DNA of 64,000 nt from Betaproteobacteria bacterium Ga0077523 (lineage in GTDB: Bacteria; Pseudomonadota; Gammaproteobacteria; Burkholderiales; Ga0077523): positions 166,835 to 230,834 of the forward strand of contig LNDQ01000112.1 of NCBI GenBank assembly GCA_001464695.1, given 5' to 3'. Below the pieces are notes generated by a model that did no database searches, had not been told where the DNA came from, and saw only the letters and a list, made by a program, of their open reading frames with translations. Position 1 is the first letter of the stretch, and every line of letters begins with the position of its first letter. Both the position numbers and the translations under genes were made by a program. Below, one piece after another: positions 30,207 through 58,858 of the stretch.

Positions 30207-30219
30207 GATGCTTGGGTTC

Positions 30220-31449
30220 CTAGCGAATGCTGCGAACGGAATGGTGGTGCCAGGTCGTGGCCGATACGCCGTAGCCACGGGCGGCGAGTTGGCTTTCGTA
30301 GAGCTGTGAGTAGGCGTCCACCATCACTGGCAGGCTGAAGCGGGCCAGGGCTTCCTTGCGGGCGTTGCGCGCCTGCTCCCGTCGCACGTCGGGCTGTCGA
30401 AGGTAGTCGACGATGGAATGCGCCAGTGCGCCGCTATCGGCGCGGGGCACGAGCGTCCCCGTGTGCCCGTCGGTCACCAGTTCCGGATTGCCACCGACCT
30501 CGGTCGCGAGCACGGGGATCCCGGAGGCCATCGCCTCGAGTATCGTGTTCGAGATGCCTTCGGACAGCGACGGCAGCACGAACAGGTCGAGGCTGCGCAG
30601 GACTTCCGGCACATTGTTCAGAGCGCCGGGCAGCCAAGCCTGTTGGCTCAGCCCGTGGCTCTCGAGGGTCCGCAGCGCCTCGGCCCGCAACGGACCTTCG
30701 CCGACCATGACGAGCCGCAGCCGTTGCGCTATCTCAGGCGCCATCTCGGTTGCCGTGATGAACGCGCGTACGAGGTTCAGGGGGTCCTTGACGGGGTCCA
30801 TCCTTCCGACGGTCCCGACGACGAGATCATCCTCGCCGGCAAAGCCGAGAGGGGTCACCCGTTCGGGCTTTGCGTCCACCGGGTGGAAGCGCTCCGTGTC
30901 GACCCCGTTACAGATATGCGTGACACGCCTGCCCGGAATGCCGATGCGCTCGATGAGGTAGCGCTCGAGATCGTGCGACACGGCCACGTAGTGATGAACC
31001 GCGGGCCGCAAGGCGCGGCGCACCGCCAGGTACTTCCAGTTGTTGCCATCGGGGTCGTCGGCGTTGCGCCCGTGTTCGCTATGGATGCGAACCGGTACGG
31101 CGGCCAGCGCTGCGGCGGGCTGATGCTCCAGGGCAGCGATGTTGCGCGTGTGTACGACCGCAGGCCGTAGCTGTCGCAACAGGCGCAGCATGCGCGCGTG
31201 GGTGACCGGGCTGTTGCCGGGAGGCTTGCGCAAGGCGTGCAGTTCGACATCCGGACGGGTGATGCGCTTGCTGAAGTCCGTGTAGTCGGTCAGGCAGATC
31301 ACGGCATGCCGAAAGCGGTCTTCCGGCATGCGGTTCAGCAGGTTGACCAGGCCGTTCTCCAATCCGCCCCAGTCGAGGCGGAAGATGACGTGCGCGATCA
31401 GCGGCCGCGGATCGTGGCCGGCAGGGCGGTGCTGGCCGAAGGCCGACAT
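30220..31449 (-). CDS. TIGR03088-type PEP-CTERM/XrtA system glycosyltransferase
   Basis: Start at ATG 31449 overlaps the exosortase stop (TGATG). The 409-residue GT-B enzyme has IAHVIFRLDWGGLENGLVNLLNRMP, HTRNIAALEHQPAAALA, ICNGVDTERFHPVD, VGRMDPVKDPLNLVRAFI and LPSLSEGISNTILEAMASGIPVLA. These match the glycosyltransferase that commonly follows exosortase A. It builds the exopolysaccharide repeat. It is cotranscribed with xrtA. Confidence 0.9.
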   Translation of the reverse strand: MSAFGQHRPAGHDPRPLIAHVIFRLDWGGLENGLVNLLNRMPEDRFRHAVICLTDYTDFSKRITRPDVELHALRKPPGNSPVTHARMLRLLRQLRPAVVHTRNIAALEHQPAAALAAVPVRIHSEHGRNADDPDGNNWKYLAVRRALRPAVHHYVAVSHDLERYLIERIGIPGRRVTHICNGVDTERFHPVDAKPERVTPLGFAGEDDLVVGTVGRMDPVKDPLNLVRAFITATEMAPEIAQRLRLVMVGEGPLRAEALRTLESHGLSQQAWLPGALNNVPEVLRSLDLFVLPSLSEGISNTILEAMASGIPVLATEVGGNPELVTDGHTGTLVPRADSGALAHSIVDYLRQPDVRREQARNARKEALARFSLPVMVDAYSQLYESQLAARGYGVSATTWHHHSVRSIR

Positions 31450-33032
31450 CAGCGCGCCACCGGGTCCGCGACCCCCACGGTGCCGAGCGTGGGGCGCAGT
31501 TGCTGGGCGATGTCCTGCAGGCGAGCTCGAGCCGCGGCCACGTCTTCGCCGTCGATCGGGGTGATCAGGGCGACACCGGTGCTGTCGGTACCCCGACCCG
31601 ACAAGCGGGCGCGCATCAGCGCGATCTTGGCATCGACGAACCCGCTCGCTTCCATGCCGCCGATCAGCGACCACTGCCAGGAAAGCACGTGTACACCGCG
31701 CGCACCGATCTCGCGCTCGACCACCTGGAAGTCTGGCGCAATGGCGCCGATCACCCTATCGCGTCGCACCAGAACGCGCCATTCGGAATCGAAGTCCACC
31801 ATGGTGGAGCCGTCGAAGGTGGTGAGCTTCGTCCCGCCGGAATCCGAGGCGTACCGCGCAACGTGGACGTCCACTGTGCCTTGGTCTCGACGATACTGAG
31901 CGGATGCTCGTGCCGTCGGATTCTCGAAAGGCGGGCGCCATGAGAGCTGCGGGTCACCTGTGTGCGTCCACATGCCGAGTGCGGGTGCCAGTTCGACCTG
32001 GTAGGTGCCACGCGATGCTGCGTCAGCAGCGTCGATCGCAAACGCTGCCAGCGGCGCCACGGCCGAAAGTGTGGCCGTCGCAGCTGCAGCCAACCATACC
32101 GGGCGCATGGTGGCGTGGGCTCGCGTAGCGGACGACACCGGCCCGGCGATCTCCGGACGGCCGTCGCTCATGAACCGCACACCGAAGTAGAACAGGGCCG
32201 TCATTACGATCCCGAAGAACACCCATCCGTAAATCAGGTGGTCCACACCCACCGCGATCGTGTTGTTGCTGTAGTGTCCCAGCAGGACAATCATGTAGGC
32301 ACGCAGCCAATTGGCCACGATGGGCACGATCACGGCCAGCACGACGAACACCCAGCGCCGCCGGTTCGACCGGAAATTGAGGTAGGCAAACAGGCTGCCT
32401 GCAAACAGGGAGACGATCAGGTATCGCACCCCGCTGCACTCCTGAACCACCGACCATTCGCCGGAAGGAATCACGAAATTGTTGCCCTCGCGGAACACCG
32501 GAACGCCGGTCATGCGCAGTGCGGTGACCGTGAAATCGGCGGTGAGGTCGATCAGTTGCGGAATGAACACCTCGCCGAAGGGCCACGCGAACAGCAGGAA
32601 GGCCAGCGGGAACGCAGCGCGGCGCGCGAAATCCCGGCCGAGAACGGTGATCAGTGTCACAGGCACTGCGGCGACCAGCGCGAGGTCGCGGAAGCTCTTG
32701 ATGTTCGACGCGTACCCGAGGAACCAGAGCATGCCGAGGAGAGCAAGCAGCGCCAATCCGGGCCACCACGGCCGCCAATCCACCCCGGCGAACTTGGCCC
32801 GTTCCCGCCAGAGCAGCCACGCGCTCACCGGCACCACGAGAAATCCATGGTTGTACGAAACCGAATTGTTCCAGGTGTCGATGACCCCCAGCGCAGTCGG
32901 CCAGTGCACCAGCAGCAGGGCCAGGACCGCGATCACGGCCACCAGCCAGAGTTGGCGCGCGGACCCCGAGCCGATGCGGGGCGAGGCGTTGGGGGTGAGT
33001 TCGGGCGGATTCATGCGCGAGTGATCCGGCAT
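31449..33032 (-). CDS. xrtA: Exosortase A fused to EpsI-like domain
   Basis: The 527-residue inner-membrane protein has about eight hydrophobic spans in its first 290 residues. The transpeptidase-like catalytic triad is visible: Cys in VVQECSGVRYLIV (about residue 199), Arg in NWLRAYMIVLLGHY (about 244) and His in VDHLIYGWVFF (about 265). Residues after about 310 form the soluble EpsI-type domain (WRPPFENPTARASAQY, MVDFDSEWRVL), fused as in other XrtA proteins. It cleaves PEP-CTERM tails and probably transfers the protein to an acceptor. The start could be the ATG at 33014; the one used lies 6 bp after the dehydrogenase stop. Confidence 0.95.
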   Translation of the reverse strand: MPDHSRMNPPELTPNASPRIGSGSARQLWLVAVIAVLALLLVHWPTALGVIDTWNNSVSYNHGFLVVPVSAWLLWRERAKFAGVDWRPWWPGLALLALLGMLWFLGYASNIKSFRDLALVAAVPVTLITVLGRDFARRAAFPLAFLLFAWPFGEVFIPQLIDLTADFTVTALRMTGVPVFREGNNFVIPSGEWSVVQECSGVRYLIVSLFAGSLFAYLNFRSNRRRWVFVVLAVIVPIVANWLRAYMIVLLGHYSNNTIAVGVDHLIYGWVFFGIVMTALFYFGVRFMSDGRPEIAGPVSSATRAHATMRPVWLAAAATATLSAVAPLAAFAIDAADAASRGTYQVELAPALGMWTHTGDPQLSWRPPFENPTARASAQYRRDQGTVDVHVARYASDSGGTKLTTFDGSTMVDFDSEWRVLVRRDRVIGAIAPDFQVVEREIGARGVHVLSWQWSLIGGMEASGFVDAKIALMRARLSGRGTDSTGVALITPIDGEDVAAARARLQDIAQQLRPTLGTVGVADPVAR

Positions 33033-34355: not shown

Positions 34356-35581
34356 GTTTGCAATGCCCCTGCGTTGGAATTGTCGGTAGTGGCGCGAGAT
34401 GAACCCATGCAGCGTTCGATGATGCGGTCGAGCCGGCGCATGGACTGGTCCCAGGCGTGATGCGAGAGAATGCGTTCGCGACCTGCCGTGGCGAGCCGGC
34501 GCCGCTCGTCCCGGTCGTCCATGAGCCGTGAGATAGCGCGAACGTAGTCGTCGGACGTGTCGCAGACCAGGAAATGATGCTGATCCTGTGCATCCACGCC
34601 GCCGGCCGCGACGCGGCTGGTGACCACCGGCACGCCCATGGCCATGCCTTCGAGAATCTTGTTCTGGGTGCCGCGCGCGATGTTGAGCGGCGCGATCATG
34701 CAGGCCGATCGTTGCACGTACGGCCGCACATCCGGTACCGACCCGGTCACGGTGACCCCCGGCAACTCGCCCAGCTTGCGTACCGCGGGCGACGGATCGG
34801 CGCCGACGATGAGGAGCTTGGTGCCCGGGCGGTGCGCCTGCAGCAGCGGCAACGTGGTGCGGCAGAAGTCGAACATGCACTCCTGGTTCGGGTAGTAGTC
34901 CATGCGTCCGACGAAGCAGATCGTGTCGGCGTCATAGGGCGCATCGGACGGGGCGAAGTACTGGTGATCGACGCCGTTCGGAAACCAGTCCGACGCCACG
35001 CCGGTACCGTAGCTCTCCAGCGTCTCCCACTCGGCCCGTGTGGTGGCCGTGCACAGATCGAACTTGCGCGCGAGGCGCTTCTCGGCACGCTCCATCTTCC
35101 AGCCTTCCAGCCGGTAACCGAGCGACAGCGGAAACGGTTTGGCATCGGCGTACTCGAACCACTTCTGCGAATCCATGTCGCCGAAGTCGAGGATCTTGGG
35201 TATGTCGCGTACGTCCTCGACGTACTGGGCCACCGAAGAGCAATGCACGAAGATGAGGTCGAAGCGCTCGGCCGCGAGCAGGCCGCGCACGCGTGCCGCC
35301 AGATCCGGCGAATAGAAGAACCCCATGGACGAAGGTTCGAGCGACGGCAGCCGTACCACCATGCGCAGCGCCTGGACGTCGTTGCGCACCTGGCCGATCT
35401 CGAAGCGCTTGCAGTAGGGCGCGATGCCCTGCGCATCGGCCGCTTCGGCAGCCGAGCGGGCGAGGGAAGCCACGGTCACCTCATGCTGGGCGTTCAGGTG
35501 CCGGATCATGTTGAACGGGCGAATCTTGCCGCCGCGCTTGGGCGGGTAGGGAAAGCGGTGGCAGACGTAGAGGATCTTCAT
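34352..35581 (-). CDS. TIGR03087-type PEP-CTERM/XrtA system glycosyltransferase
   Basis: Start at ATG 35581 overlaps the amidotransferase stop as ATGA. The 409-residue protein begins MKILYVCHRFPYPPKRGGKIRPFNMIRHL and has HCSSVAQYVEDVRDIPKILDFGDMDSQKW, WFPNGVDHQYF, ICFVGRMDYYPNQECM and IAPLNIARGTQNKILEGMAMGVPVV. These are hallmarks of this exosortase-specific GT4 family. It forms part of a chain of overlapping genes. Confidence 0.92.
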   Translation of the reverse strand: MKILYVCHRFPYPPKRGGKIRPFNMIRHLNAQHEVTVASLARSAAEAADAQGIAPYCKRFEIGQVRNDVQALRMVVRLPSLEPSSMGFFYSPDLAARVRGLLAAERFDLIFVHCSSVAQYVEDVRDIPKILDFGDMDSQKWFEYADAKPFPLSLGYRLEGWKMERAEKRLARKFDLCTATTRAEWETLESYGTGVASDWFPNGVDHQYFAPSDAPYDADTICFVGRMDYYPNQECMFDFCRTTLPLLQAHRPGTKLLIVGADPSPAVRKLGELPGVTVTGSVPDVRPYVQRSACMIAPLNIARGTQNKILEGMAMGVPVVTSRVAAGGVDAQDQHHFLVCDTSDDYVRAISRLMDDRDERRRLATAGRERILSHHAWDQSMRRLDRIIERCMGSSRATTDNSNAGALQT

Positions 35582-37503
35582 GCCGCGACCGCCGCGAGCT
35601 CGTCGGTGACGTCGACCGGTGTCTGTCCGTCGAGAAAGATGCGGCTCCAGATCTCGAGGTTCATGAGCGCCAGCAACTGGTCGGTCCCGTCGATGCGATT
35701 CGCATCGTGGTCCGCCATCAGTCTCCCGATCACGCCATGGTCGAAGAGACCGCGGCGGTGCACGCTCTGAGGCGAGAGCAGTTCGCGCATCACCTTGGCG
35801 AGGTCGCGCTTCAGCCATGCGCCCATGGGTGTGCCGAAGCCGCGCTTCTTCCGGTGCAGGATGTCGTCCGGTAGCGTGTCGGCGAGCGCCGCCTTCAGCA
35901 CGTGTTTCAACTGACCGCCCTTCAGCTTGAGGCTCTCGGGGATGCGGGCCGCGAGTTCGACCAGTTCGTGATCGAGCAGCGGTACGCGGCATTCGAGCGA
36001 CACGGCCATGCTCATCTTGTCGGTCAGCATCAGCAGGTCGTCGGGCAGCTGCGTTTCGGCGTCGACACTCAACATGCGGTTGAGTCCGTCGCTGCTGGTG
36101 GCCGTCGCGAAGGCGGCGTCGATCGCGTCCCATGCATCCTGGCGACCGTTCTTCAGCAACTCTCCCCGGACTTCAGGCGAGAACACCTGCACGTATGCGT
36201 GATAGCGTTGCTCGAATGTCTGCTCGGCGGACGCCAGGAACGCCTTCCCGAGACGCAGCATGTTGAGGAGCGGCGAGTGGCGGTCGCTGGGTAGTCGGCG
36301 GGCTCCGGCCACCATGGCGCTGCGCAACCAGTGCGGCAGCTTCTCGAAATAGTTCTGGTAGTGGTTGCCGAGGTACCGGCGGTAGCCGCCGAAGAGCTCG
36401 TCGCCCCCCACGCCGGACAGGATCACCGTGACGTCACGTCGGGCGAATTCCGAGACGAGATAGGTGGTCACGAACGCCGTGTCGGCGATCGGCTCGTCGA
36501 GATGCCATATGAGCCGTGGCAGCAGGGACACCACGTCCGGCTTGACCACGATCTCGCGGTGCTCGGTCTTGAACAGCTCGCTTACGCGACGCGCGTAGGG
36601 CAGTTCGTTGTAGAGATTCTCGGCGGTTCCGCCTTCGAAGCCGATGGAGTAGGTCTTGATCGGCCGTTCGCTGTGCGCAGCCATGAACGCGACGACGGCG
36701 CTCGAATCGATTCCGCCCGACAGGAAGGCGCCGATGGGAACGTCGCTCACCATCTGCATGCGCACCGACTCTTCCAGTTGTGCGCGCACGGCGTCGGTCC
36801 ATTGGGCGGCGCTCATCGAACTGTCGATCTGCGGCGAGAGTTGCCAGTAGCGCCGCTGCTCCACTCCCGACTCGGTCACCACCAGCAGTGTGGCCGGCGG
36901 CAGCTTGGTGACACCGCGAAACAACGATTGGGGTGCGGGCACGTAGCCCAGGCGAAGATAAGAGTCGAGGGCGGCGAGGTCCAGTTCTGCCCGTACGCCG
37001 GGGATGGCGAGCAGGGCCTTCGCTTCGCTCGCGAAGGCGATGCGCTGCTGGTCGCGCATCACATAGATGGGCTTGATGCCGAGGCGGTCGCGTCCGATCA
37101 ACAGGCGCCGCCGGCGCGCATCCCAGAGCGCGAATCCGAACATCCCGTTGAGGCGCTGGACGAAGGCGTCGCCGTACTCGGCGTAGAGATACAGCAGTAC
37201 CTCGCAATCCGAACCGGTCTTGAAGCGGTAGCCCTGGTCCTGCAGCTCGGCGCGCAGCTCGCGGAAGTTGTAGATCTCGCCGTTGCAGACGACCCACAGC
37301 ATGCCGTCTTCGCTGGACAGCGGTTGGTGGCCACCGGCGAGGTCGATGATGGAAAGGCGCCGCATGCCGATGCCGCACGGGCCGTCCAGATGCTGGCCCT
37401 CGTCGTCCGGCCCGCGATGGGTGGTGATGCGGCCCATGGCCGTCAGCAATGCGGATTCGACCGGGCGGCCGTCGAAGCGATAGATGCCGTGGATGCCGCA
37501 CAT
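35578..37503 (-). CDS. XrtA/PEP-CTERM system amidotransferase (asparagine synthase family, second copy)
   Basis: The 641-residue protein starts MCGIHGIYRFDGRP with Cys2 exposed. It has TTHRGPDDEGQH and CNGEIYNFRELRAEL (glutaminase), LIGRDRLGIKPIYVMRDQ and GAFLSGGIDSSAVVAFM (PP-loop), then SGVGGDELFGGYRRYLG. Length and gene order (glycosyltransferase on each side) match the standard XrtA amidotransferase. It amidates a carboxylated sugar or a small acceptor. The start lies 6 bp after the upstream glycosyltransferase stop. Confidence 0.94.
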   Translation of the reverse strand: MCGIHGIYRFDGRPVESALLTAMGRITTHRGPDDEGQHLDGPCGIGMRRLSIIDLAGGHQPLSSEDGMLWVVCNGEIYNFRELRAELQDQGYRFKTGSDCEVLLYLYAEYGDAFVQRLNGMFGFALWDARRRRLLIGRDRLGIKPIYVMRDQQRIAFASEAKALLAIPGVRAELDLAALDSYLRLGYVPAPQSLFRGVTKLPPATLLVVTESGVEQRRYWQLSPQIDSSMSAAQWTDAVRAQLEESVRMQMVSDVPIGAFLSGGIDSSAVVAFMAAHSERPIKTYSIGFEGGTAENLYNELPYARRVSELFKTEHREIVVKPDVVSLLPRLIWHLDEPIADTAFVTTYLVSEFARRDVTVILSGVGGDELFGGYRRYLGNHYQNYFEKLPHWLRSAMVAGARRLPSDRHSPLLNMLRLGKAFLASAEQTFEQRYHAYVQVFSPEVRGELLKNGRQDAWDAIDAAFATATSSDGLNRMLSVDAETQLPDDLLMLTDKMSMAVSLECRVPLLDHELVELAARIPESLKLKGGQLKHVLKAALADTLPDDILHRKKRGFGTPMGAWLKRDLAKVMRELLSPQSVHRRGLFDHGVIGRLMADHDANRIDGTDQLLALMNLEIWSRIFLDGQTPVDVTDELAAVAA

Positions 37504-48391: not shown

Positions 48392-49234
48392 TTGATCAAG
48401 GATGGTGTCGTGAACGCACAAATCGATGCGCAACCCGGGGATGAGTTCGACAGCAGCACGCCCGCGGAAGCGCTCAGGTCACGTTTTTCGGTTTTACCTG
48501 GAGCATCGGAGCAAGTGCGTAACGAAGTTTTCCGCCTGCGGCATGAGATTTTCTGTGACGAGTTCAGACTGTTCGACAAGCGAATGGACGGCCTCGAACA
48601 GGATGAATTCGATGCCCATTCCGTCCAGCTGCTGCTGAAGCACGCGCGGACGGGTCAACCGGTCGGCTGCGTTCGGGTCGTCAAGACCCGTCCCGGCAAT
48701 CACGCCTACCCGCTTCCATTCGAGAAGTACTGTGGCGAGATGCTGAACCAGACCACCATCGATCTATCGAGCCTGCCTCGCGACAAGATCGCCGAGGTGT
48801 CTCGCCTGGGTGTGGCACCGACGTTCCGGCGCCGCAAGGGCGAGGCCCATCGCCCGGCACCGTTGCTCGACGCAGGTGTCGAGAACTCGGATCACGTCGA
48901 GAACCCGCGGCGCTACCCGTACATCCTTATTTCGCTCTACCTGGGATCGGTGGCGATCGCCCACCACGAAGGGATCGAAACTCTCTTCACCTTCACCGAG
49001 ATCCGCTTGGTCGAGCATTTCCAGCGCCTCGGCGTGCCGATCACTCCGATCCATCCGCCGGTGTCGCACAAAGGCGTTCGCCTGCCTTGCATGCTGGATG
49101 TCAACGAGACCGTTGCCGGATTTCAGCCGTACGTGCGAGGGCTGTACGACGAAATCGTTTCGCAGATGGACCGCCAGTACTCGGGTGGCATGAGTGACGG
49201 GCTCGAGATAAAGACGGGTAAGTCCGCCACCTGA
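48392..49234 (+). CDS. PEP-CTERM/exosortase system-associated acyltransferase (N-acyl amino acid synthase-like)
   Basis: Start at TTG 48392, with GGAGG seven bases upstream; a GTG at 48410 is an alternative. The 280-residue protein has FSVLPGASEQVRNEVFRLRHEIFCDEF (GNAT/AHL-synthase-like N-terminus), VGCVRVVKTRPGN, KIAEVSRLGVAPTFRRRKGE, YPYILISLYLGSVAIAHHEGIETLFTFTEIRLVEHFQRLGVPI. This pattern defines the exosortase-associated acyltransferase family, related to long-chain N-acyl amino acid synthases reported near PEP-CTERM loci. It would use an acyl-ACP, possibly from the ACP at 15.6 kb. Product unknown. Confidence 0.88.
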   Translation: MIKDGVVNAQIDAQPGDEFDSSTPAEALRSRFSVLPGASEQVRNEVFRLRHEIFCDEFRLFDKRMDGLEQDEFDAHSVQLLLKHARTGQPVGCVRVVKTRPGNHAYPLPFEKYCGEMLNQTTIDLSSLPRDKIAEVSRLGVAPTFRRRKGEAHRPAPLLDAGVENSDHVENPRRYPYILISLYLGSVAIAHHEGIETLFTFTEIRLVEHFQRLGVPITPIHPPVSHKGVRLPCMLDVNETVAGFQPYVRGLYDEIVSQMDRQYSGGMSDGLEIKTGKSAT

Positions 49235-49248
49235 ATCGAATCGTTTCG

Positions 49249-50308
49249 GTGAGCGCCCGCAACGTGAAGATACCGGAACCGGCGCGCAGTGTTCTCGAAC
49301 TCGCGCGCTGGGCACCTAGCGCAGACAACACTCAGCCCTGGCGGTTCTCTGTGGTGGACGGACACCGTTTTACAGTCCACCTGTATGACACGAGCGATGA
49401 TTGCGTCTACGACCTGGATGGCAGGATATCTCAGATCGCGTGGGGCACGTTGCTTGAGAACATCGCAATCGCCGCGACTGCAAGAGCGTGTCGTGCGCAC
49501 TTTTCGTTTCGTTTGAGGGTCGGCGAAGAACGCGGGGAGATCGATGTCCTGCTAGACCCGGAATCGTCCGGAACGCCGTTCCCTACGAATGAAGCCCCTC
49601 TTGGCGGAACAAAAATCAGCACTCGAAGCGAGTGTCGCCCCAAATCATCGCGTTCTATGGCATGAGGGTTGGCTACAGCGGATCACGATGGCCCGGCTAC
49701 TGGCTCTGAATGGCAAAGTTAGGTTGTTGCTTCCCGAGGCCTTCGACGTACATCGACGGTCGATCGAATGGGGTGCTTTTCAAAGCGAAGATCGGATTCC
49801 GGATCACGCTATCGGACTCGATCCGATCCTACTCAAGGTTACTGAGTGGGCATTCCGATCTTGGGAGCGCCTTGACTTTCTCAACAGATACCTTGCCGGC
49901 ACAGTGTTCCCGCGGCTAGAACTCGATTTCTTCCCGGCTGTTCGATGCGGGGCACATTTCGCGCTGATTGCGACCTCGGTCCCCCAAACAAAAGAGCAAT
50001 TCATTGATGGTGGGCGGGCGGTCCAACGATTCTGGCTGACAGCAGACTGTTTAGGTTTGAAGCTTCAACCTGCGGTCAGTCCGCTGGTTTTCGCGCGCTA
50101 TCTGAACGAGCATCTAACCTTTACGGCAAACGATTACATACGACTACTTGCCGAAGAAGTTCGGGATGGTATGGCAAGCATTCTCGGTGGTAGATCCGTG
50201 TTGAAGTCTACTGTGTTCGCGGGACGAATCGGGTTTGGCAAACCGCCAAAATCGCGATCTGTCCGATTGCCGCTTTCGAGATTGATAGTGCCGAAGTCTC
50301 CTCAATAG
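49249..50308 (+). pseudogene. Nitroreductase-like protein, frameshifted
   Basis: Two frames make one protein. The first (GTG 49249) gives SVLELARWAPSADNTQPWRFSVVDGH, the FMN-binding start of nitroreductase-fold proteins, up to IDVLLDP near 49560. The second frame continues TRNRPERRSLRMKPLLAEQKSALEAS through HFALIATSV...DGGRAVQRFWLTADCLGLKLQPAVSP to 50308. The junction falls near 49553-49570 and about 20 residues usual in relatives seem absent. The family resembles the C-terminal half of MoeY/Rv1355c, whose N-terminal half is ThiF-like. It follows the acyltransferase by 14 bp. Real loss or assembly error. Confidence 0.7.
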
Positions 50309-50456
50309 GCATGTGGTCCATGCGTGGCGTCTGACCACGACGATCAAGCGATTGACCTTCCCTAACGCTGGTGCACTCAAGTCGCCCCGCAATGAGAGAA
50401 GAAGTGGAGACTGGTTACCATCGCTGCGTCCGAAAGGTCCATCTAGGTACCAGAAA

Positions 50457-50486
50457 GCAGAAGGGCTCCCAAGGGAGCCCTTCTGC
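50457..50486. terminator. Strong hairpin between convergent genes (bidirectional terminator)
   Basis: GCAGAAGGGCTCCC-aa-GGGAGCCCTTCTGC has perfect 14-bp arms. It lies in the 197-bp gap between the nitroreductase-like gene (plus) and the PEP-CTERM gene (minus), ending 20 bp before the latter's stop. The A/T-rich stem ends provide short T stretches. Confidence 0.7.
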
Positions 50487-50505
50487 CAAATACTGTCGTG
50501 TCGCA

Positions 50506-51414
50506 CTAGGCGAGATTCGTGTTCCGCTTTCCACGCCGTGAGAAGCTACCGAGCGCAACAGCCGCAAGTCCTAGTAGAGCAAGAGAGCCCGGCTCAGGAA
50601 TGTAGTTTGCACGAACCGGATCGTTGCTGATCAGTTGCCACTTATCTGCGTCCGGAACGTTCGGAGAGGCAGATGCGCAAATCGCGCCAGGCAGCAAGCT
50701 TGAATTCGGGCACACAGTCCCTTGCGCCAGAAGGTCACGCGCACCAAACGGGGTCCCGAATCCATTCGTATCGAAATTCGACTCGTGGCTTCCGCCCGTT
50801 ACGTTGAGGTAACCAGCGAAGTCGCCGTTCAACGGGAAACCGGTCGATACCACGGTACCCCGAAACTCTGTACCGGCCGCGGCGATTCCATCTGCGGACT
50901 CAGTCGAGAGGAAGAGCGCCCCACCCACGACGTTGCTTACTGTGTTGTAGCAAAGGTCGCCAATCGCGCATCCGCCGCCAGCGGCAGCATATCCCTGCAA
51001 GCCTTGCCCGGAATTCAGATTGATGGGGTTGATGTAGAAGTCGAAGGCTCCGTCCGACGTCGTGTAGTCAAATCCGCCTGCGCTGGGAACAACGGTCGCA
51101 ACTGTCTGATGGAACACGCCGGAGATGAAAGCTCCGTCTTGGCCGGAAGTCCAGACATTGAAAGCATCGCCGTTCGTGTCGATTCCGGAGATGGAGGTAA
51201 CCCGGAGCACCCCAAAAATGGTAGCGCCAGGGGTCAAATCCAAGTTCGTTCCGGTTCCACTCGCTCCAGCACCGAGCACTCCCACGTTCTCGAAGTTCTG
51301 GAACTTGATTTCAAGGGGACCGGTATAGCCGCCAAGTGAAAAAACAGGCGCCGCTTGGGATCCGGTTGCAGCAATTCCGAGGGCTAGAATGGCTGCGCTA
51401 AGTACCTTTTTCAT
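50506..51414 (-). CDS. PEP-CTERM sorting domain protein
   Basis: The 302-residue protein has a signal peptide (MKKVLSAAILALGIAATGSQA). It ends NYIPEPGSLALLGLAAVALGSFSRRGKR, the PEP motif, hydrophobic span and basic tail. The mature part is Gly/Ser/Thr/Asn-rich and beta-strand-like (GVLGAGASGTGTNLDLTPGATIFGVLRV) with one close Cys pair (CAIGDLC). It should be exported and processed by XrtA, then displayed or shed into the matrix. A well-matched sigma-54 element lies 53 nt upstream. Confidence 0.9.
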   Translation of the reverse strand: MKKVLSAAILALGIAATGSQAAPVFSLGGYTGPLEIKFQNFENVGVLGAGASGTGTNLDLTPGATIFGVLRVTSISGIDTNGDAFNVWTSGQDGAFISGVFHQTVATVVPSAGGFDYTTSDGAFDFYINPINLNSGQGLQGYAAAGGGCAIGDLCYNTVSNVVGGALFLSTESADGIAAAGTEFRGTVVSTGFPLNGDFAGYLNVTGGSHESNFDTNGFGTPFGARDLLAQGTVCPNSSLLPGAICASASPNVPDADKWQLISNDPVRANYIPEPGSLALLGLAAVALGSFSRRGKRNTNLA

Positions 51415-51827
51415 TTCGGTTGTCTCCTGAGTAACGTCGGAAAGTGCGTCTGCGCCAAACGTATAGGCATACAGTGTGCCAACGAAAAATACCTATAATT
51501 ATGAATAAGTTGAGATCATTTTTTTTCTTGCAGCACTCCAGCTGCAAGAGTCTTGTCAGGAAAACCGACAGTCTGGCATTGGTCCGAGCCGGCGCTTTTT
51601 TTTTGCGTGCGTCCCGGCGGATAGGCTTTTGGCTACGTAACTATTTGATGCTGCGACTGTGGATGCTCTGACTAGGCCCTCGCGTAGTCACCTCGGCTGC
51701 GTGGCTGACTGTTTGGCTTGCCCTTGCGTGCCCTGACGACCGTCAGGTCTGTCGAATTCTGAGTTGCGGCGACCTGCTAGAACAACTCTGCGTCACGCTA
51801 GGAATCACGACGTGCCTTCCCGGACGC
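51415..51827. other. Intergenic region before the PEP-CTERM gene, no gene found
   Basis: About 413 bp between two minus-strand genes. The part next to 51414 holds the sigma-54 element. The remainder has a run of nine T at about 51597-51605 without a convincing stem. The short ORF at 51444 starts within the promoter and is judged spurious. Base composition is AT-richer than the ABC transporter genes. Confidence 0.6.
51467..51481 (-). promoter_or_regulatory. Sigma-54 (-24/-12) promoter element upstream of PEP-CTERM gene
   Basis: The minus strand reads TGGCACACTGTATGC, preceded by T, against TGGCACGnnnnTTGC. Only two consensus bases differ and GG/GC spacing is exact. It lies 53 nt before the ATG at 51414, leaving a 5' leader of about 40 nt that contains an AGGAG ribosome site. 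Confidence 0.65.
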
Positions 51828-53105
51828 CTAGACGCTCTGCCGCAGGGCCTCGACGACCTTCACGCGCGATACGCGCAGAGCCGGGACCAGCGCCGCGAGC
51901 ACCGTAGCCGCAAAGCTGATGGCAAAGCCCACGGCGATGGCCTGTGGCGTGAGCTGGATGTACGCGGTGTAAGACAAATCGGCATTCGGTGGCGGCGGCA
52001 TCGGAATTCCCACCTTCGAGACACCGTACGCCACCGCCCAGGCGACGCCGACGCCGATGACGCCACCGATGACCCCGAGCATGGTGTTCTCCAGCATCAC
52101 CAGCCGGAAAATGAGGCCGCTACGGTTGCCCAGGGCCCGGGCGGTGCCGAACTCGGCAACCCGTTCGAAGACGGAGGTGTTGACGGCGTTCACCACGCTC
52201 AACAGCACCATCAGCAGGATGATGAGCTGCAGACCCCCGAACTGGCGGTGATACAGCTCCACCGTCTTGGGGTAGAAGTCGTTCAGCTGGTCCCAGGTCC
52301 GCACTTCCTGGTCCCGCCAGACCGTACGCTCGGTGAGGATGCGCGCGACTTCCTTGGTGTCAGCGGTGCGCTTCAGCGCCACCACGAGCGTGTTGGCGCT
52401 CTTGGTGTTGAGCAGTTCTTGCGCTGCAGCAAGCGGCATCTTGATGGCACGATTGTCGTACTCCTTCGAGAAGGTCTGGAAGGTGCCGACCACCTCGAGG
52501 TCGAGCGTGTTGGTGGCCCCGTCCGAAGTGCTCACTACTACAACCACCTGGGCCCCGGGCTTCAGCTTCAGGGCGCTCGCGACCCCGTGCCCGAGGATGG
52601 CGGTGTAGTGGTCCTTGGCGTTGAGCCGGCGGCCCGACGACATCTTGAGGAAGGTGCCGAGCTTCTCTTCCTTCTCGGGCTCGATGCCCTCGCCGATGAT
52701 CGCGAGGTCGGCCTTGCCGTTATTGAGCAGGCCCGAGAACGAGAGCCGTGCCATCACGTCGTCCACCTGCGGCAGCGAGGTGATGCGCTCGCGATCGCCC
52801 TCGACGTCGGCCACCAGGTACTTGTCGGGCTGGTGCGACCCGTAGGTGTAGTAGCCGCCCTTGGCGAGCTGGATGTGGCCGGTCTGGGAGTGGACGATGG
52901 CCTCGGCGAGCTGCACGAAGATGTCCTCGACGAACCCCTGGCTCAGGATCAATGCCGCCGTTCCGAAGGCGACCGAGGCGAGGATCGAGGCCGCGCGACC
53001 CTTGTGGCGCAGCAGGTTGCGATACGCGAGGCGCAGCACCACCGAGAACGGTGTGCGGGTGGCCTTGGTGCGCTTGGCCGGCCTATCGGGCGTGTCTGAG
53101 AGCAT
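51828..53105 (-). CDS. ABC transporter permease (FtsX/MacB-type), second subunit
   Basis: Start at ATG 53105 (MLSDTPDRPAKR), overlapping the upstream permease gene by 23 bp in another frame. The 425-residue protein has an N-terminal membrane span (ILASVAFGTAALILSQGFVEDIF), a large periplasmic domain, and three C-terminal spans (LQLIILLMVLLSVVNAVNTSVFERVAEFGTARALG, then GVIGGVIGVGVAWAVAYG and VGFAISFAATVLAALVPALRVSRVKVVEALR). This is the FtsX-type layout of mechanotransmission and lipoprotein/lipid exporters. It is 41% or so of a two-permease pair; partner and ATPase are nearby. Confidence 0.88.
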   Translation of the reverse strand: MLSDTPDRPAKRTKATRTPFSVVLRLAYRNLLRHKGRAASILASVAFGTAALILSQGFVEDIFVQLAEAIVHSQTGHIQLAKGGYYTYGSHQPDKYLVADVEGDRERITSLPQVDDVMARLSFSGLLNNGKADLAIIGEGIEPEKEEKLGTFLKMSSGRRLNAKDHYTAILGHGVASALKLKPGAQVVVVVSTSDGATNTLDLEVVGTFQTFSKEYDNRAIKMPLAAAQELLNTKSANTLVVALKRTADTKEVARILTERTVWRDQEVRTWDQLNDFYPKTVELYHRQFGGLQLIILLMVLLSVVNAVNTSVFERVAEFGTARALGNRSGLIFRLVMLENTMLGVIGGVIGVGVAWAVAYGVSKVGIPMPPPPNADLSYTAYIQLTPQAIAVGFAISFAATVLAALVPALRVSRVKVVEALRQSV

Positions 53106-54369
53106 CGACGATCGACAGACGGGAAGCTTTCCACGCCGGGAAGACCCCGGCCAGGAATGCGGTGCCCACGGAGAGCAGCATCGCATCTGCCACGAGCCAC
53201 GGGGTCACCAGGATGCCGGCCACGTAGCTGCTGGCCATCCCGGGCGGTGGCGGCATCGGAATACCGACGTGGCTGATGAAGCGGGCGAGCGCGATGCCGA
53301 GGATCACCCCGATGGTGCCGCCCACCACGCCCATGACCGTGCCCTCGACCAGGAACCGGCGCAGCACGGTGCGGCGCGTGTCGCCCAGCGCCATGCAGGT
53401 GCCGATCTCGCCGGTGCGGTCGCGCACGTTGGTCATCATGGTGTTCGAGATGCTGAGGATGATGATGAAGGCGATCATCAGCTTGACCACCAGCACCTGC
53501 TTGGAGAAGAGCGACACGGTCTTGTTGTAGAAGTCCGCGGCCGACGTTTCGTACCAGGGCGTGAGCTGCAGCTCCTGTTGCGGCACCTTGTCGCGGATGC
53601 GCTTCATGGTGCGGTCGGTCTGGGAGGTCTTGTCCAGCAACACCAGCCAGGCGTGCACGCCTTCGGTCCGGAGGAGCCCCTGCGAGGTCTTGAGGGGCAG
53701 GCGCAGGGCAAAATCGTCGTAGGCCTTGGTGATGGTGGAGAAGATGCCCGTGACCTTCACCTCCAGGGCGTTGATGCCGCCCGACTGCGTGTTCGCCACC
53801 AGGACGACCGTATCGCCGGTCTTCACGCCCAGGTTCTGGGCGAGACCCTGGCCGACGATGACCTCCTTGGCGTCGGTGGTCGATAGATCCGCGCCTTCGA
53901 GCAGCTTGAGCGTACCCGAGAGCTTGCGCTCCCGCTCCGGATCCACGCCGTCAGCCATGAACGAGACGGTGGATTCGCCGACGCTGATGAGGCCGTTGAA
54001 CGAAAGCCGTGGTGCGACGGTATCGACCTGGGGGAACGCTTCGATCAACTCGCGGGTGTCGTTCTTCTCCGGAATGAGATAGCGAAACGGATCGGCCGCG
54101 CCCGCGTCCAGGTAGCCCGGACGGCTCACGATGATGTGGCCGATGCGCGCGCGGATGGTGCCCTCGCGCATCGTGTCGTAGTTCCACTCGAAGAAGCCCG
54201 AGGCGAGCAGCAGCGCGACCACGCCCGACGCGATGGCCGACAGGCCGATGGCGCTGCGCCGCCGCTGGCGCACCACGTTGCGGGCCGCCAGCGAAAGGTC
54301 GAGCCTGAGGACGGCCCAGCGCTTGGCAAGCCAATCCTTCAGGAGCTCACGCTGGTATTGGGAGAACAT
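53083..54369 (-). CDS. ABC transporter permease (FtsX/MacB-type), first subunit
   Basis: The 428-residue protein has the same architecture as its downstream partner: LSLAARNVVRQRRRSAIGLSAIASGVVALLLASGFFEW at the N-terminus, a periplasmic domain of about 230 residues, and three C-terminal spans from VLVVKLMIAFIIILSISNTMMTNVRDRTGEIGTCMALGDTRR. The two are clearly paralogues, each with a VGIPMPPPP loop before the last span. They form a heterodimer in the inner membrane, with the ATPase at 57.2 kb, to extract or export a lipidic or protein substrate. Confidence 0.88.
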   Translation of the reverse strand: MFSQYQRELLKDWLAKRWAVLRLDLSLAARNVVRQRRRSAIGLSAIASGVVALLLASGFFEWNYDTMREGTIRARIGHIIVSRPGYLDAGAADPFRYLIPEKNDTRELIEAFPQVDTVAPRLSFNGLISVGESTVSFMADGVDPERERKLSGTLKLLEGADLSTTDAKEVIVGQGLAQNLGVKTGDTVVLVANTQSGGINALEVKVTGIFSTITKAYDDFALRLPLKTSQGLLRTEGVHAWLVLLDKTSQTDRTMKRIRDKVPQQELQLTPWYETSAADFYNKTVSLFSKQVLVVKLMIAFIIILSISNTMMTNVRDRTGEIGTCMALGDTRRTVLRRFLVEGTVMGVVGGTIGVILGIALARFISHVGIPMPPPPGMASSYVAGILVTPWLVADAMLLSVGTAFLAGVFPAWKASRLSIVDALRHAR

Positions 54370-54492
54370 GCTTTCGGGATAGCCGCTGTTCCGGCGTGCT
54401 TGGGGCTGCGCGTGAGGTCACTATACTAGCGGGATGTTCCGGGTCGACGTAACAAAGCCGCTCGGCCGCTGCCACACAAGAGAGGGACAATC

Positions 54493-55374
54493 ATGGCGCC
54501 AGCACCCCGTCCGTTCGACTATTCCGAGGCTTTCTCCCGCAACGTCGGCTGGGTCACCGAAGCCGAACTGAAGACGCTGCGCAACAAGCGCGTCGCCATC
54601 GCGGGGCTCGGTGGCGTCGGCGGGCTGCACCTGCTCACGCTCACGCGCATGGGCGTGGGGAAGTTCAATCTGTCGGAGTTCGATGATTTCGATCTGCCCA
54701 ACTTCAATCGGCAGGTGGGCGCGATGATGAGCACGGTGGGCCGGCCCAAGCTCGACGTGCTGATCGAGATGGCGAAGGACATCAATCCGGAACTCGACAT
54801 CCGTGCGTTTCCCGGCGGCGTCAACGAATCGAACCTGCCCGACTTCCTCGACGGGGTGGACGTGTACGTCGACGGCATCGACTACTTCGCGTTCGACGCA
54901 CGGCGTGCCACCTATGCCGCGTGTGCGCGCAAGGGCATTCCCGCGACCATCGCCGTGCCCCTGGGCATGGGCGCCTCGGGGCTCACGTTCCTGCCGGGCG
55001 GCATGTCCTTCGACGACTACTTCGGCATGGCGGGCCAGCCGGAGCTGGAGCAGGCCATCCGCTTTCTCGTCGGCGTCTCGCCCGCGATGCTGCAACGAAC
55101 CTACGTGGCCGACCCGACTCGCGTGAATCTCGCCAAGCGCACCGGACCGTCGACGCCCATGGCGTGCATGATCTGCGCCGGCGTGGCCGCAACCGAGGCG
55201 GTGAAGCTGATGCTGGGCCGGGGCGACATCATCGCGGCACCGAGAGGGTTCCACTACGACGCCTACCGCAACAAGTACGTGAAGACGTGGCGCCCGTGGG
55301 GCCACCGCAATCCGATCACGCGGGTCATGCTGGCGATCATCAAGGCGCAGCTGCGACGCATGGGGGCGATGTGA
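54493..55374 (+). CDS. ThiF/MoeB/HesA family adenylyltransferase
   Basis: The 293-residue E1-like protein has the nucleotide site VAIAGLGGVGGLHLLTLTRMGVGKFNLSEFDDFDLPNFNRQVGA, then DVYVDGIDYFAFDARRATYAACARKGIP. These are core features of ThiF-fold enzymes that adenylate a carboxylate or C-terminus. A CMIC pair near the C-terminus is the only possible metal pair, so the zinc site is incomplete. It starts 15 bases after an AGAGGGA ribosome-site-like stretch. The nitroreductase-like gene at 49.2 kb would be its fusion partner in MoeY/Rv1355c-type proteins. Substrate unknown. Confidence 0.85.
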   Translation: MAPAPRPFDYSEAFSRNVGWVTEAELKTLRNKRVAIAGLGGVGGLHLLTLTRMGVGKFNLSEFDDFDLPNFNRQVGAMMSTVGRPKLDVLIEMAKDINPELDIRAFPGGVNESNLPDFLDGVDVYVDGIDYFAFDARRATYAACARKGIPATIAVPLGMGASGLTFLPGGMSFDDYFGMAGQPELEQAIRFLVGVSPAMLQRTYVADPTRVNLAKRTGPSTPMACMICAGVAATEAVKLMLGRGDIIAAPRGFHYDAYRNKYVKTWRPWGHRNPITRVMLAIIKAQLRRMGAM

Positions 55375-55548: not shown

Positions 55549-57144
55549 TCAGAAGTCGTACCGCGTCTCGACATACACACGATCGCGGTCGCGATAGCGG
55601 CCGATGAACCCGGTGATCGGTCCGTCGAAGATGTCGACGCCGAATGCCACGCGCAGGTTGGGTTGCAGTTTCCAGATGAGGCGCGGACGCGACAGGTATT
55701 CGCGCCGGTTGAGGCTCTGGATGTGCAGGATCTCCGCTTCCCACTTCGAGAACAGCTTCACGTTGAGCAGGAAGCTCATCCCGCTTTCGACACGGTCGAA
55801 GTACAGATCTGGGTCGTGCTCGCGGTAGATCCGCTGGAAGCCTTGCACGTTGAGCCGGGTGTCGCGCGGCAAGGTGAAGTCGAGGCCGAGCACCCAGTCC
55901 CAGGTGTCCTGTCGCACCAATCCGGTCGGCTCGCTGGTGCGGGTCACGTTGAAGCTGCGGCCATCGGTGTAGATGACCTCACCCTTCAGCACAGCCGGGC
56001 CGAGATCCTTGGACAGGGTGCCGCCCGCCTGCCAGATGCGATCGTGGCGCGCCTGCCAGGTGACCGTCGGCACGGGGGCGACGACGATTTCGCGCTGGAA
56101 AGTGGCAGAGGCATCGGTGCTGCGGTAGTAGAACGCAGTCAGGTCCCATCCGGCCTTGAGGGTGGAGGCGCGCGCCCCGTAGTTGGAATTGTTGAGGTCG
56201 CGGTCGGGAATGACCTCGGCGCGGAACTGCTGCTGGAAGCCGGGGGGCGGCGGTGCCTGGATCGGAAAGAACTCCGACCCGGGTTTGCCGATGTTGTCGT
56301 AGCTGTTGTACGGGATCCAGATGACCTCGAAGTGCGAGTCGCCGGCGAAATACTCGGCACGCGCCGCCCATTGGGGAATGCGGATGATGTCGAACGTGGG
56401 CAGCACGAACGAGCGCAGGTCCTTGGCCGACACGACGTCGGCGAAGAACAGGCCCACCATCTCGCCCCACACGATGTTCTGGCGGCCCAACCGGAGATCG
56501 ACAGCCCCGGCGCTGGTGTCGACGTAGGTCTCGCCGACCAGGAAGTCGGCGCGCTGATCTTGCTTCACCTCCTCGTTGTAGAAGCCGGAGTTGAAGTACA
56601 CAGGGTCGACGTCCCCGCGGATCGTGGCCTTCCATTTGAGGTTGGCGCCCGCCTGGCCCGACGCGCCGATCTGCCCCCGGAACACGCCGCGCGACCAGTG
56701 CGACGGATCGGCGTAGGTGTAGGCCGTCTCCTGCTGGACGAAGCCCTTGAACTTGATGTTCGCCGGTCGCGCTTCGGGCTCCTTGGCCGTCGCGGCCGCT
56801 GCCGTGCCGGTACCAAAGAGTTCGTCCTTGCTCGACGGGGCCGTGTCGCCGAACAGCTCATCCTTCGATGCGGGCGCCTTTGGTTCGCTCTTGGCCGCGG
56901 CGGCCGCTGGTGCAGCGGCTGGTGCGGCAGGTGGTGCCGCTGGTTTGGTCGTGCCAAAGAGGTCGTCCTTGCTGAGCGGTACATCCTCTTCCGTCGGCTT
57001 GGCTGGGGCCGGCTTGGGCTGCGCGGGCTTCTTCTTGGGGTCCGTCTGCGCCACCCGGGCCGGCTTCTTGGCCTCCGCGCCCCACGACGCAACAGGCAAG
57101 GCGACGGCGATGGCGATCAGGTACAGCGCAAGCGTTCTCGGCAT
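55549..57144 (-). CDS. Outer membrane beta-barrel protein (DUF1302-like) with repeated SKDELFG linker
   Basis: Start chosen at ATG 57144 (MPRTLALYLIAIAVALPVASWG), a clear signal peptide; ATG 57165 is possible. After it, a Pro/Ala/Lys-rich linker of about 100 residues contains three copies of a short motif: LSKDDLFGTT, ASKDELFGDT and SSKDELFGTG. The remaining 400 residues are alternating strands (DLRLGRQNIVWGEMVGLFFADVV) ending RDRVYVETRYDF, with a final Phe as in outer-membrane proteins. It resembles DUF1302 proteins that partner LolA-like proteins. Probably the outer-membrane end of the ABC system. Confidence 0.78.
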   Translation of the reverse strand: MPRTLALYLIAIAVALPVASWGAEAKKPARVAQTDPKKKPAQPKPAPAKPTEEDVPLSKDDLFGTTKPAAPPAAPAAAPAAAAAKSEPKAPASKDELFGDTAPSSKDELFGTGTAAAATAKEPEARPANIKFKGFVQQETAYTYADPSHWSRGVFRGQIGASGQAGANLKWKATIRGDVDPVYFNSGFYNEEVKQDQRADFLVGETYVDTSAGAVDLRLGRQNIVWGEMVGLFFADVVSAKDLRSFVLPTFDIIRIPQWAARAEYFAGDSHFEVIWIPYNSYDNIGKPGSEFFPIQAPPPPGFQQQFRAEVIPDRDLNNSNYGARASTLKAGWDLTAFYYRSTDASATFQREIVVAPVPTVTWQARHDRIWQAGGTLSKDLGPAVLKGEVIYTDGRSFNVTRTSEPTGLVRQDTWDWVLGLDFTLPRDTRLNVQGFQRIYREHDPDLYFDRVESGMSFLLNVKLFSKWEAEILHIQSLNRREYLSRPRLIWKLQPNLRVAFGVDIFDGPITGFIGRYRDRDRVYVETRYDF

Positions 57145-57245
57145 GGAGCGGTCCTGGATGTGCATTTCAGCCCTCGCCGGGCCGCCCCAAGAGGGCTGGC
57201 CCCCTGGGGGGAGAGGCCGCGAGGCCTATCGGGGGGGACTTCACG

Positions 57246-58004
57246 TCAAGTCTCGACCGGCACGGGCGCGGCGGTGCGTCGCGGGACCGGTGTGGTCTGC
57301 CACTGGCCGTCCTTGCGAACGCCGAGCAGGCGCATCACCCCGTCCTCGATGGTGACGAGGCGGTCGGCTGCGTCGATCACCTTCTTGTCGTGGGTGGAGA
57401 AGATGAAGGTGGTGCGGGAGCGGCGATTGATGTCTCGCATGAGCGCGAGGATGCCCTCGCCCGTCTTGTGATCGAGGTTGGCGGTGGGTTCGTCGGCCAG
57501 CACGATCTCGGGCTTCGTGACGAGTGCACGAGCGATCGCGACGCGTTGCCGCTGGCCGCCGGAGAGCTGGTTGGGCCGGTGCTTGCCGAACTTCTCGAGG
57601 CCGACCATCTGCAGCATCGCGTTGACGCGCTCGGCGCGATCCTCCTTGTCGAGCTCCGGCATCTGCAGCAGGGGATACTCGACGTTCTCGAAGGCCGTGA
57701 GGACCGGAAAGAGGTTGAAGGTCTGGAAGACGAAGCCGATGTTGCGGGCGCGCAGGTTGGCGAGCTGGTCGGGGGTGCGGCCCGATACGTCGTGCCCGGC
57801 GATGGCAACCTTTCCCTTGGACGGGGTGTCGATGCAACCGATGATGTTGAGCAGGGTGGACTTGCCGCTCCCGGACGGGCCGGCGATGGCGAGGAAGACG
57901 CCGCGCTCCACCGTGAGGGTGACGTCGTCCAGGGCGAGCACCGTGTGCTCCCCCAGCCGGTACTCCTTGGTGACTCTTTCGACTTCTACGACCGGCTCAG
58001 CCAT
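57246..58004 (-). CDS. ABC transporter ATP-binding protein (LolD/MacB-type)
   Basis: The 252-residue protein has Walker [15 protein letters not shown]-loop [22 protein letters not shown], signature [15 protein letters not shown], Walker [13 protein letters not shown] and switch His STHDKKV. Sequence is of the LolD/MacB group that powers FtsX-type permeases. It lies 101 bp from the outer-membrane gene, while the permeases lie 2.9 kb away on the other side, so the transporter genes are split by ThiF and the barrel. A short GC-rich palindromic stretch fills the gap to 57166. Confidence 0.92.
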
Positions 58005-58072
58005 GGGTTTTCGTGGTACTTGAGGTTTTTGGAATTATCATACTGAGCCACAAGGAAAAAGACGAGACGACA

Positions 58073-58858
58073 ATGTTACGGATCCCGGCCTTTCTACGGC
58101 TCGCCAGGCACCTTACGGGTGCGGCGGCCGCGTCAATGCTCTTTTCGGCGGTTCCCGGAATTTCTCAAGCCGAGGAGGATCCGGACGCTGCCGCTCGCGC
58201 CATCCTCCAGAAATCCGACGAGATCCGCTTCCCGGTGACGGGCTTCGAGGTGGCGGTCCGGATCCGCTCGATCGAAGGCGGCGACGCCCCGGAGGTGCGC
58301 GAATTCAAGGTGCTGTCCAAGGGCAACGAGAACACCATCGTGCTTACCACGTCACCGGCTTCCGAGCGCGGGCAGATCCTGCTCATGAAGGCCCGCGACC
58401 TGTGGCTGTTCGTGCCCAACGTGTCGCAGCCGGTGCGACTGTCGCTGTCGCAACGCCTGACAGGAGTGGTCTCCAACGGGGATATCGCCCGGGCCAACTT
58501 CAGCGGTGACTACAACCCGAAACTGGTGGGGAGCGAGACCATCGACGGGCAGGCCTACCATGTGCTTGAGCTGACGGCGATCGATCGTGCGGTCACTTAC
58601 CAGAAGGTCAAGTACTGGGTGAAGCAGTCCAGCAACGCGCCGCTCAAGGCCGAGTTCTACTCGCTGTCGGGGCGGCTCCTCAAGACCTGCAGCTACGAAG
58701 ACTACAAGCAGCTCGGCGGCAAGGTGCGGCCGACCAAGCTGGTGATGGTCGACGCGCTCAAGGAAGACACCCGGTCCTTCATGGACTACGAGGACATGAA
58801 GAACCGCGAGTTGCCGGACAAGGTGTTCACCAAGGAGTACCTGAAGAAGCTGGAGTGA
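58073..58858 (+). CDS. Outer membrane lipoprotein-sorting protein (LolA-like)
   Basis: Start at ATG 58073 (MLRIPAFLRLARHLTGAAAASMLF), a signal peptide; 20 residues of the ORF track before it are dropped. The 261-residue protein has ARAILQKSDEIRFPVTGFEVAVRIRS, RDLWLFVPNVSQPVRLSLSQRLTG and YHVLELTAIDRAVTYQKVKYWVKQSSNAPLKAEFYSLSGRLLKTCSYEDYKQLGG, hallmarks of the LolA/LppX fold (PF17131). It would carry a hydrophobic cargo across the periplasm for the ABC system. It is divergent from the ATPase. Confidence 0.88.
   Translation: MLRIPAFLRLARHLTGAAAASMLFSAVPGISQAEEDPDAAARAILQKSDEIRFPVTGFEVAVRIRSIEGGDAPEVREFKVLSKGNENTIVLTTSPASERGQILLMKARDLWLFVPNVSQPVRLSLSQRLTGVVSNGDIARANFSGDYNPKLVGSETIDGQAYHVLELTAIDRAVTYQKVKYWVKQSSNAPLKAEFYSLSGRLLKTCSYEDYKQLGGKVRPTKLVMVDALKEDTRSFMDYEDMKNRELPDKVFTKEYLKKLE

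Follow-up and report, generated by a model that had tools for sequence, protein, structure and literature searches.

An exosortase-linked acyltransferase and ThiF locus with a disrupted flavin oxidase gene: a likely Gram-negative version of the acyl-oxazolone pathway

Genes of the locus

The window, by which we mean the whole stretch of 64,000 nucleotides analysed, contains an XrtA/EPS locus that directly precedes a stretch holding an acyltransferase gene, a nitroreductase-like gene and a ThiF gene, all three of which were placed on the plus strand by open reading frames and profile searches. The neighbouring EPS/PEP-CTERM locus is anchored by exosortase A (XrtA; 31449..33032, minus strand; TIGR03109, 323.7 bits against a cut-off of 208) and also has two XrtA/PEP-CTERM-system amidotransferase genes (28314-30278 and 35578-37503). 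A first-pass annotation of this DNA had described nitroreductase and ThiF halves lying next to the acyltransferase, which is correct for the oxidase, at a spacing of 15 nt, but not for ThiF, which is 5.3 kb away beyond the broken oxidase gene, a PEP-CTERM gene and two ABC permease genes. A scan for promoters and terminators found such signals to be no commoner than in shuffled sequence.

The acyltransferase (48392..49234, plus strand) matches TIGR03694, the PEP-CTERM/exosortase-associated subfamily, with 209.7 bits against a curated cut-off of 111.95, and the exosortase with which this family is associated, XrtA, is encoded in the same genome. Acetyltransf_5 and Autoind_synth also score above their Pfam cut-offs, and FeeM (PF21926) scores below its own (21.1 against 27 bits). 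A structural model (pLDDT 81.6) matches the AHL synthases TofI, BjaI and LasI as well as the N-acyl amino acid synthase FeeM (2g0b), and residues E69, D74, R95, E135, S137 and R138 are invariant among 31 relatives. The resemblance to N-acyl amino acid synthases seen in the first-pass annotation is thus matched by the modelled fold; amino acid N-acylation is the predicted activity, and the TIGR03694 match and the AHL-synthase/FeeM fold together point to the N-acyl amino acid synthase of the Oxz/Tyz/Trz pathway. Among characterised acyltransferases encoded near genes of this kind, the closest are OxzA, TyzA and FeeM, which belong to a different subfamily from TIGR03694.

The ThiF-like protein (54493..55374, plus strand) belongs to the PRK08223 family (NF006077/PRK08223, 444 bits against a cut-off of 266; Pfam ThiF, 134 bits), the closest solved relatives of its profile being TcdA, MoeB and ThiF. 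Residues N70, R73, Q74, K86, D127 and D130 are invariant in 15 relatives, so that the conserved adenylation residues (the region of R73, K86 and D130) are retained, and the protein also matches the Rv1355c, PRK14851 and PRK14852 profiles; ATP-dependent cyclisation of an N-acyl amino acid is predicted. A role as a MoeB/ThiF cofactor adenylyltransferase was considered and rejected at scores of 50-76 bits against equivalog cut-offs of 159-376. By their profile matches, ThiF and the oxidase each correspond to one half of Rv1355c- and PRK14851-type fusion proteins, as had been proposed, although the name MoeY used in that proposal is a misannotation, since Rv1355c is now TrzS.

Between the oxidase and ThiF lie, on the minus strand, a gene for a PEP-CTERM protein (50506..51414; PF07589, 22.5 bits) and two for LolCE-like ABC permeases, the second at 51828..53186 (MacB_PCD and FtsX matches; below the LolCE cut-off) and the first at 53083..54369 (identified by profile matches). 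The PEP-CTERM protein has no homology to the one at the same site in the closest relative, L031, a locus from the same genus, and its gene is probably incidental to the cluster. Past ThiF come genes for a DUF1302 outer-membrane protein (55549..57165, minus strand; PF06980, 47.7 bits), a LolD-like ABC ATPase (57246..58004, minus strand; ABC_tran, 125 bits, with LolD the best match but below cut-off) and a LolA-like periplasmic carrier (58013..58858, plus strand; PF17131, 173.7 bits), which with the permeases form a candidate exporter. We rejected its identification as the canonical Lol lipoprotein exporter: the permeases score 119.7 and 88.6 bits against the LolCE cut-off of 362, and a true LolCE gene (514 bits) is found elsewhere in the genome, so that the transporter of the window is an extra copy.

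The disrupted oxidase gene

The nitroreductase-like gene reported in the first-pass annotation is present (approximately 49249-50308) but not intact, its N- and C-terminal parts lying in different frames. The N-terminal fragment (49249..49665, plus strand) has Acg-family, Rv1355c and PRK14851 matches, and the C-terminal fragment (49589..50308, plus strand, in another frame that is open from 49556) covers the remainder of the Rv1355c and PRK14851 profiles. Homologues are intact flavin-dependent oxidases of about 360 amino acids, and comparison with the intact 364-residue oxidase at the same place in L031 reveals a 44-nt gap at about 49569, after which the N-terminal frame runs into a stop. The gap costs some 14 residues, including the position of an arginine that is invariant in an alignment of 36 family members. 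An intact relative gave a model of pLDDT 93.9 whose best match among solved structures is Acg (2ymv), the template also used for the oxidase domain of TrzS (PMC12856293). The intact flavin-dependent oxidase of the Oxz/Tyz/Trz pathway, retained in L031 and most relatives, is therefore lacking at this locus, and a search of the window's genome, a draft of 156 contigs and 87% completeness, returned only the two pieces and no other copy of the family.

An error of assembly or consensus, with the full three-enzyme pathway intact in the organism, would account for the break and is in keeping with the draft state of the genome and with the conserved appearance of the rest of both fragments. We consider it unlikely, as the change is a gap of 44 nt rather than a single-base error and the divergence extends beyond it: the stretch from the oxidase to the permeases is only 56-63% identical to L031 at the protein level, the oxidase included, whereas the acyltransferase reaches 95% and ThiF 99%. 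This difference, together with the differing PEP-CTERM gene, suggests that the segment has probably been replaced or is under relaxed constraint. Three further genomes of the genus (G001, G006 and G009) keep ThiF but have no oxidase, from which we conclude that loss of the oxidase is recurrent. Since the oxidase gene is disrupted, the pathway probably does not proceed through all three of its steps in this genome.

The frameshifting gap and the failure to find a second copy could also be taken as signs that the whole cluster is decaying in this lineage, the acyltransferase and ThiF being non-functional relics. This is very unlikely, given that both genes are intact, retain their family-invariant residues and show the high identities to L031 quoted above, and that the same three genomes of the genus hold on to ThiF without the oxidase. 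In two of them, G006 and G009, a methyltransferase takes the place of the oxidase. A UbiE-like methyltransferase gene, beside ThiF and FeeM-type acyltransferase genes, was found in four loci (L030:8940-9671, L032:8888, L051:12421 and L099:11986), two of them from the window's genus, and the oxidase in none of these (p=8e-4); we found no description in the literature searched of a methyltransferase replacing the oxidase in such loci.

Occurrence of the genes in other genomes

An alignment scan for ThiF in 84,980 species genomes gave 80 loci, to which 14 relatives were added, and 20 loci around another ThiF-type gene (TcdA/MoeB-like) served as controls; the profiles were built from the survey loci. 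Partner genes within 10 kb were counted in those 54 scan loci that have 6 kb or more of sequence on each side; these are the loci most closely related to the window's ThiF and do not form a random sample. The oxidase was found near ThiF in 46 of these 54 loci and an acyltransferase of either type in 37 (TIGR03694-like in 24, FeeM/OxzA-like in 16), neither occurring in any of the 20 controls, and for this reason the association of ThiF, oxidase and acyltransferase is not a matter of chance. The first-pass annotation had named a lack of such co-occurrence as grounds for abandoning its idea, which has thus survived the comparison. When a single locus is taken for each named genus or lineage (n=39), the oxidase is seen in 34, an acyltransferase in 30 and the permease in 21.

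Among 60 related genomes, ThiF scores above its cut-off in 15, XrtA above its own in 20 and both do so in 14; ThiF therefore occurs in 14 of the 20 genomes with XrtA but 1 of the 40 others (Fisher p=3e-8, treating related genomes as independent). Oxidase and ThiF are associated across the same genomes with p=1.6e-8, again by Fisher test with related genomes treated as independent and with one contig-truncated ThiF counted as present. ThiF and the oxidase form a single protein in L028, L033, L041, L046 and others. In the NCBI model PRK14852 (989 positions), FeeM-type acyltransferases match positions 26-216, ThiF 312-586 and the oxidase from 619 onwards; the presence of all three parts in one chain is strong support for a single pathway. 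A group of Oxalobacteraceae-type loci from Janthinobacterium, Duganella and Rugamonas (L050, L057, L062, L067, L071, L076-L078, L086, L088 and L096) has ThiF and the oxidase, and the two acyltransferase profiles found no acyltransferase within 10 kb of ThiF in the Janthinobacterium/Duganella group.

It might be argued that the acyltransferase instead serves the exosortase/EPS system, acylating a PEP-CTERM protein, a sugar or a lipid carrier, and that ThiF and the oxidase belong to a separate pathway that happens to lie nearby. The TIGR03694 family is named after its exosortase association, four genomes (G016, G026, G031 and G049) have it in the absence of ThiF, and the window's own genome has a second TIGR03694 acyltransferase (L142; G000:C108:68777-69457) with neither ThiF nor oxidase nearby. 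Nevertheless, TIGR03694-type genes adjoin ThiF or oxidase genes in many loci distant from EPS genes (Thauera, Azoarcus, Zoogloea), FeeM-type synthases are found in the same position and in PRK14852 form one chain with ThiF and the oxidase, and a profile search of the window's genome (87% complete) found no FeeM-type synthase above cut-off that could supply ThiF instead, so that we regard a separate role as quite unlikely. The acyltransferase of L142 is conserved in G008 and G009.

The candidate exporter genes are also enriched around ThiF, with the permease near it in 25 of 54 loci and the ATPase in 15 (1 of 20 controls for each), DUF1302 in 15 and LolA in 14 (0 of 20 controls for both); all four parts are together in 8 of the 54. 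Orthologues of the permease and of the DUF1302 protein, which appear to be inherited together, occur in exactly the same 13 of the 60 genomes, and 12 of these 13 also have XrtA. A block of acyltransferase, permease and permease, divergent from ThiF-oxidase, recurs in Thauera, Azoarcus, Parazoarcus and Rhodocyclaceae, and some Gammaproteobacteria have an MMPL pump nearby, either by itself or accompanied by LolA-like and DUF1302 genes. The set is also seen without ThiF, in L153 and L154 with no acyltransferase and in L155-L157 with TIGR03694 only, and its cargo may therefore be broader. We infer a probable but unproven function for the ABC/LolA/DUF1302 set in exporting the lipid of the cluster. 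Our literature searches found no report joining exosortase with DUF1302, LolA or LolC, and none describing linkage of the ThiF cluster to the LolCE-like ABC/LolA-like/DUF1302 set or to MMPL.

Several loci carry further variations. Of 54 loci, 22 have a UGT-type glycosyltransferase gene in the neighbourhood of ThiF, which suggests glycosylated products in some lineages; this gene stands immediately after the oxidase at L028:1450-2685, L029:11815-13059 and L033:7821-9023. At L081:520-1746 a cyclic-nucleotide-binding domain is fused to a FeeM-type acyltransferase adjoining a ThiF-oxidase pair, and the synthesis of N-acyl amino acids may be under cAMP-type control there. An N-terminal PAS domain is fused to an MMPL pump near ThiF-oxidase at L061:16451-19138, with a similar ORF in L081.

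Proposed pathway and comparison with known systems

By its gene content, with the exception of the disrupted oxidase, the locus is a member of the Oxz/Tyz/Trz pathway. What the present work establishes is the identity of the genes, the folds, the conserved residues, the co-occurrence and the break in the oxidase gene, and the chemistry of the three enzymatic steps is known from other species; that these particular proteins would perform them, with which amino acid and acyl chain, and the export step, is inferred. The acyltransferase would take a fatty acyl group from acyl-CoA or acyl-ACP and attach it to an amino acid at the amino group, and the ThiF-like protein, with ATP, would activate the carboxylate for ring closure with the amide to give an acyl-oxazolone, which in relatives the flavin-dependent oxidase would desaturate with O2. 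The LolCE/LolD-like ABC transporter, LolA-like carrier and DUF1302 protein may then export the lipid across the envelope. With the frameshifting deletion in the oxidase gene, the desaturation step would be lost here, and synthesis should consequently go no further than the N-acyl amino acid or the oxazolone in its saturated form.

We therefore favour, as the likely explanation, an exosortase-linked, Gram-negative version of the acyl-oxazolone/N-acyl-dehydroamino acid pathway, with a likely exporter, that is stalled or altered here by loss of the oxidase. The first-pass annotation had anticipated a pathway to a modified N-acyl amino acid, and the gene families and their co-occurrence support this outline; it is, however, not a new proposal, since the biochemistry is known and published for OxzAB, TyzABC and TrzAS (PMC10404671, PMC12856293). 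Its chemistry is also in need of amendment, in that ThiF of those known systems cyclises the N-acyl amino acid to the oxazolone rather than merely activating a carboxylate, and their flavin enzyme is an O2-dependent desaturase rather than one that reduces or rearranges. The less familiar part, absent from that interpretation, is the neighbouring Lol-like ABC, LolA and DUF1302 genes and the linkage to XrtA. These tie a recently discovered class of lipids to the exosortase matrix system, whose connection with N-acyl amino acid synthases was recognised in 2011 (Craig et al., as cited in a passage of PMC4897644) and left unexplained, and they provide candidate genes for the export of lipids of which PMC10404671 says that the fate in the cell is unknown. 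More tentatively, and with rather less confidence than we place in the pathway itself, we suggest that exosortase-bearing bacteria export acyl amino acids or acyl-oxazolones across the envelope to the cell surface by a Lol-like ABC or MMPL pump, a LolA-like carrier and DUF1302, as part of the biology of their PEP-CTERM matrix, and that a methyltransferase may stand in for the oxidase.

A close parallel is TyzABC of M. tuberculosis (Rv2336, Rv2338c and Rv2337c), in which TyzA N-acylates Tyr or Phe, the ThiF protein TyzB cyclises with ATP and TyzC desaturates with O2, and near which lies the lipid transporter gene mmpL9 (PMC10404671). The window shares with it separate genes for acyltransferase, ThiF cyclase and flavin oxidase and a transporter gene nearby, but differs in its acyltransferase subfamily, its Gram-negative exosortase setting, its ABC/LolA/DUF1302 set in place of MmpL and its broken oxidase. 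TrzA/TrzS (Rv1356c/Rv1355c) carry out the same chemistry on Trp, with cyclisation first (PMC12856293), and OxzAB of Pseudoalteromonas rubra is cited as an acyl-oxazolone maker in passages of PMC10404671 and PMC12856293; the same three domains are found in these systems and in the window, where ThiF matches one half of the Rv1355c profile and the oxidase the other, but ThiF and the oxidase are fused in them and separate here.

A trio of N-acyl amino acid synthase (NAS), ThiF-like protein and flavin enzyme of the nitroreductase type, like that of the window, has been proposed for kyonggic acid, thalassotalic acid and the stieleriacines, in whose producers the oxazolone was unseen and the role of ThiF was termed enigmatic (PMC12479983). 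Massilia kyonggiensis is of the same taxonomic order as several of the survey loci, and the clusters of Stieleria also carry a UbiE-like methyltransferase, as do four survey loci; the products are open-chain N-acyl dehydrotyrosines, and a link to an exporter or exosortase is absent from the discussion in PMC12479983. For the putative exporter, a precedent is offered by the monoterpene efflux system AmeABCD, which combines a DUF1302 outer-membrane protein, a LolA-superfamily periplasmic protein and an inner-membrane pump (PMC6394551); the trio is alike, though the pump of AmeABCD is of the RND type and its substrate a monoterpene, whereas the window has an ABC pump and some Gammaproteobacteria an MMPL pump.
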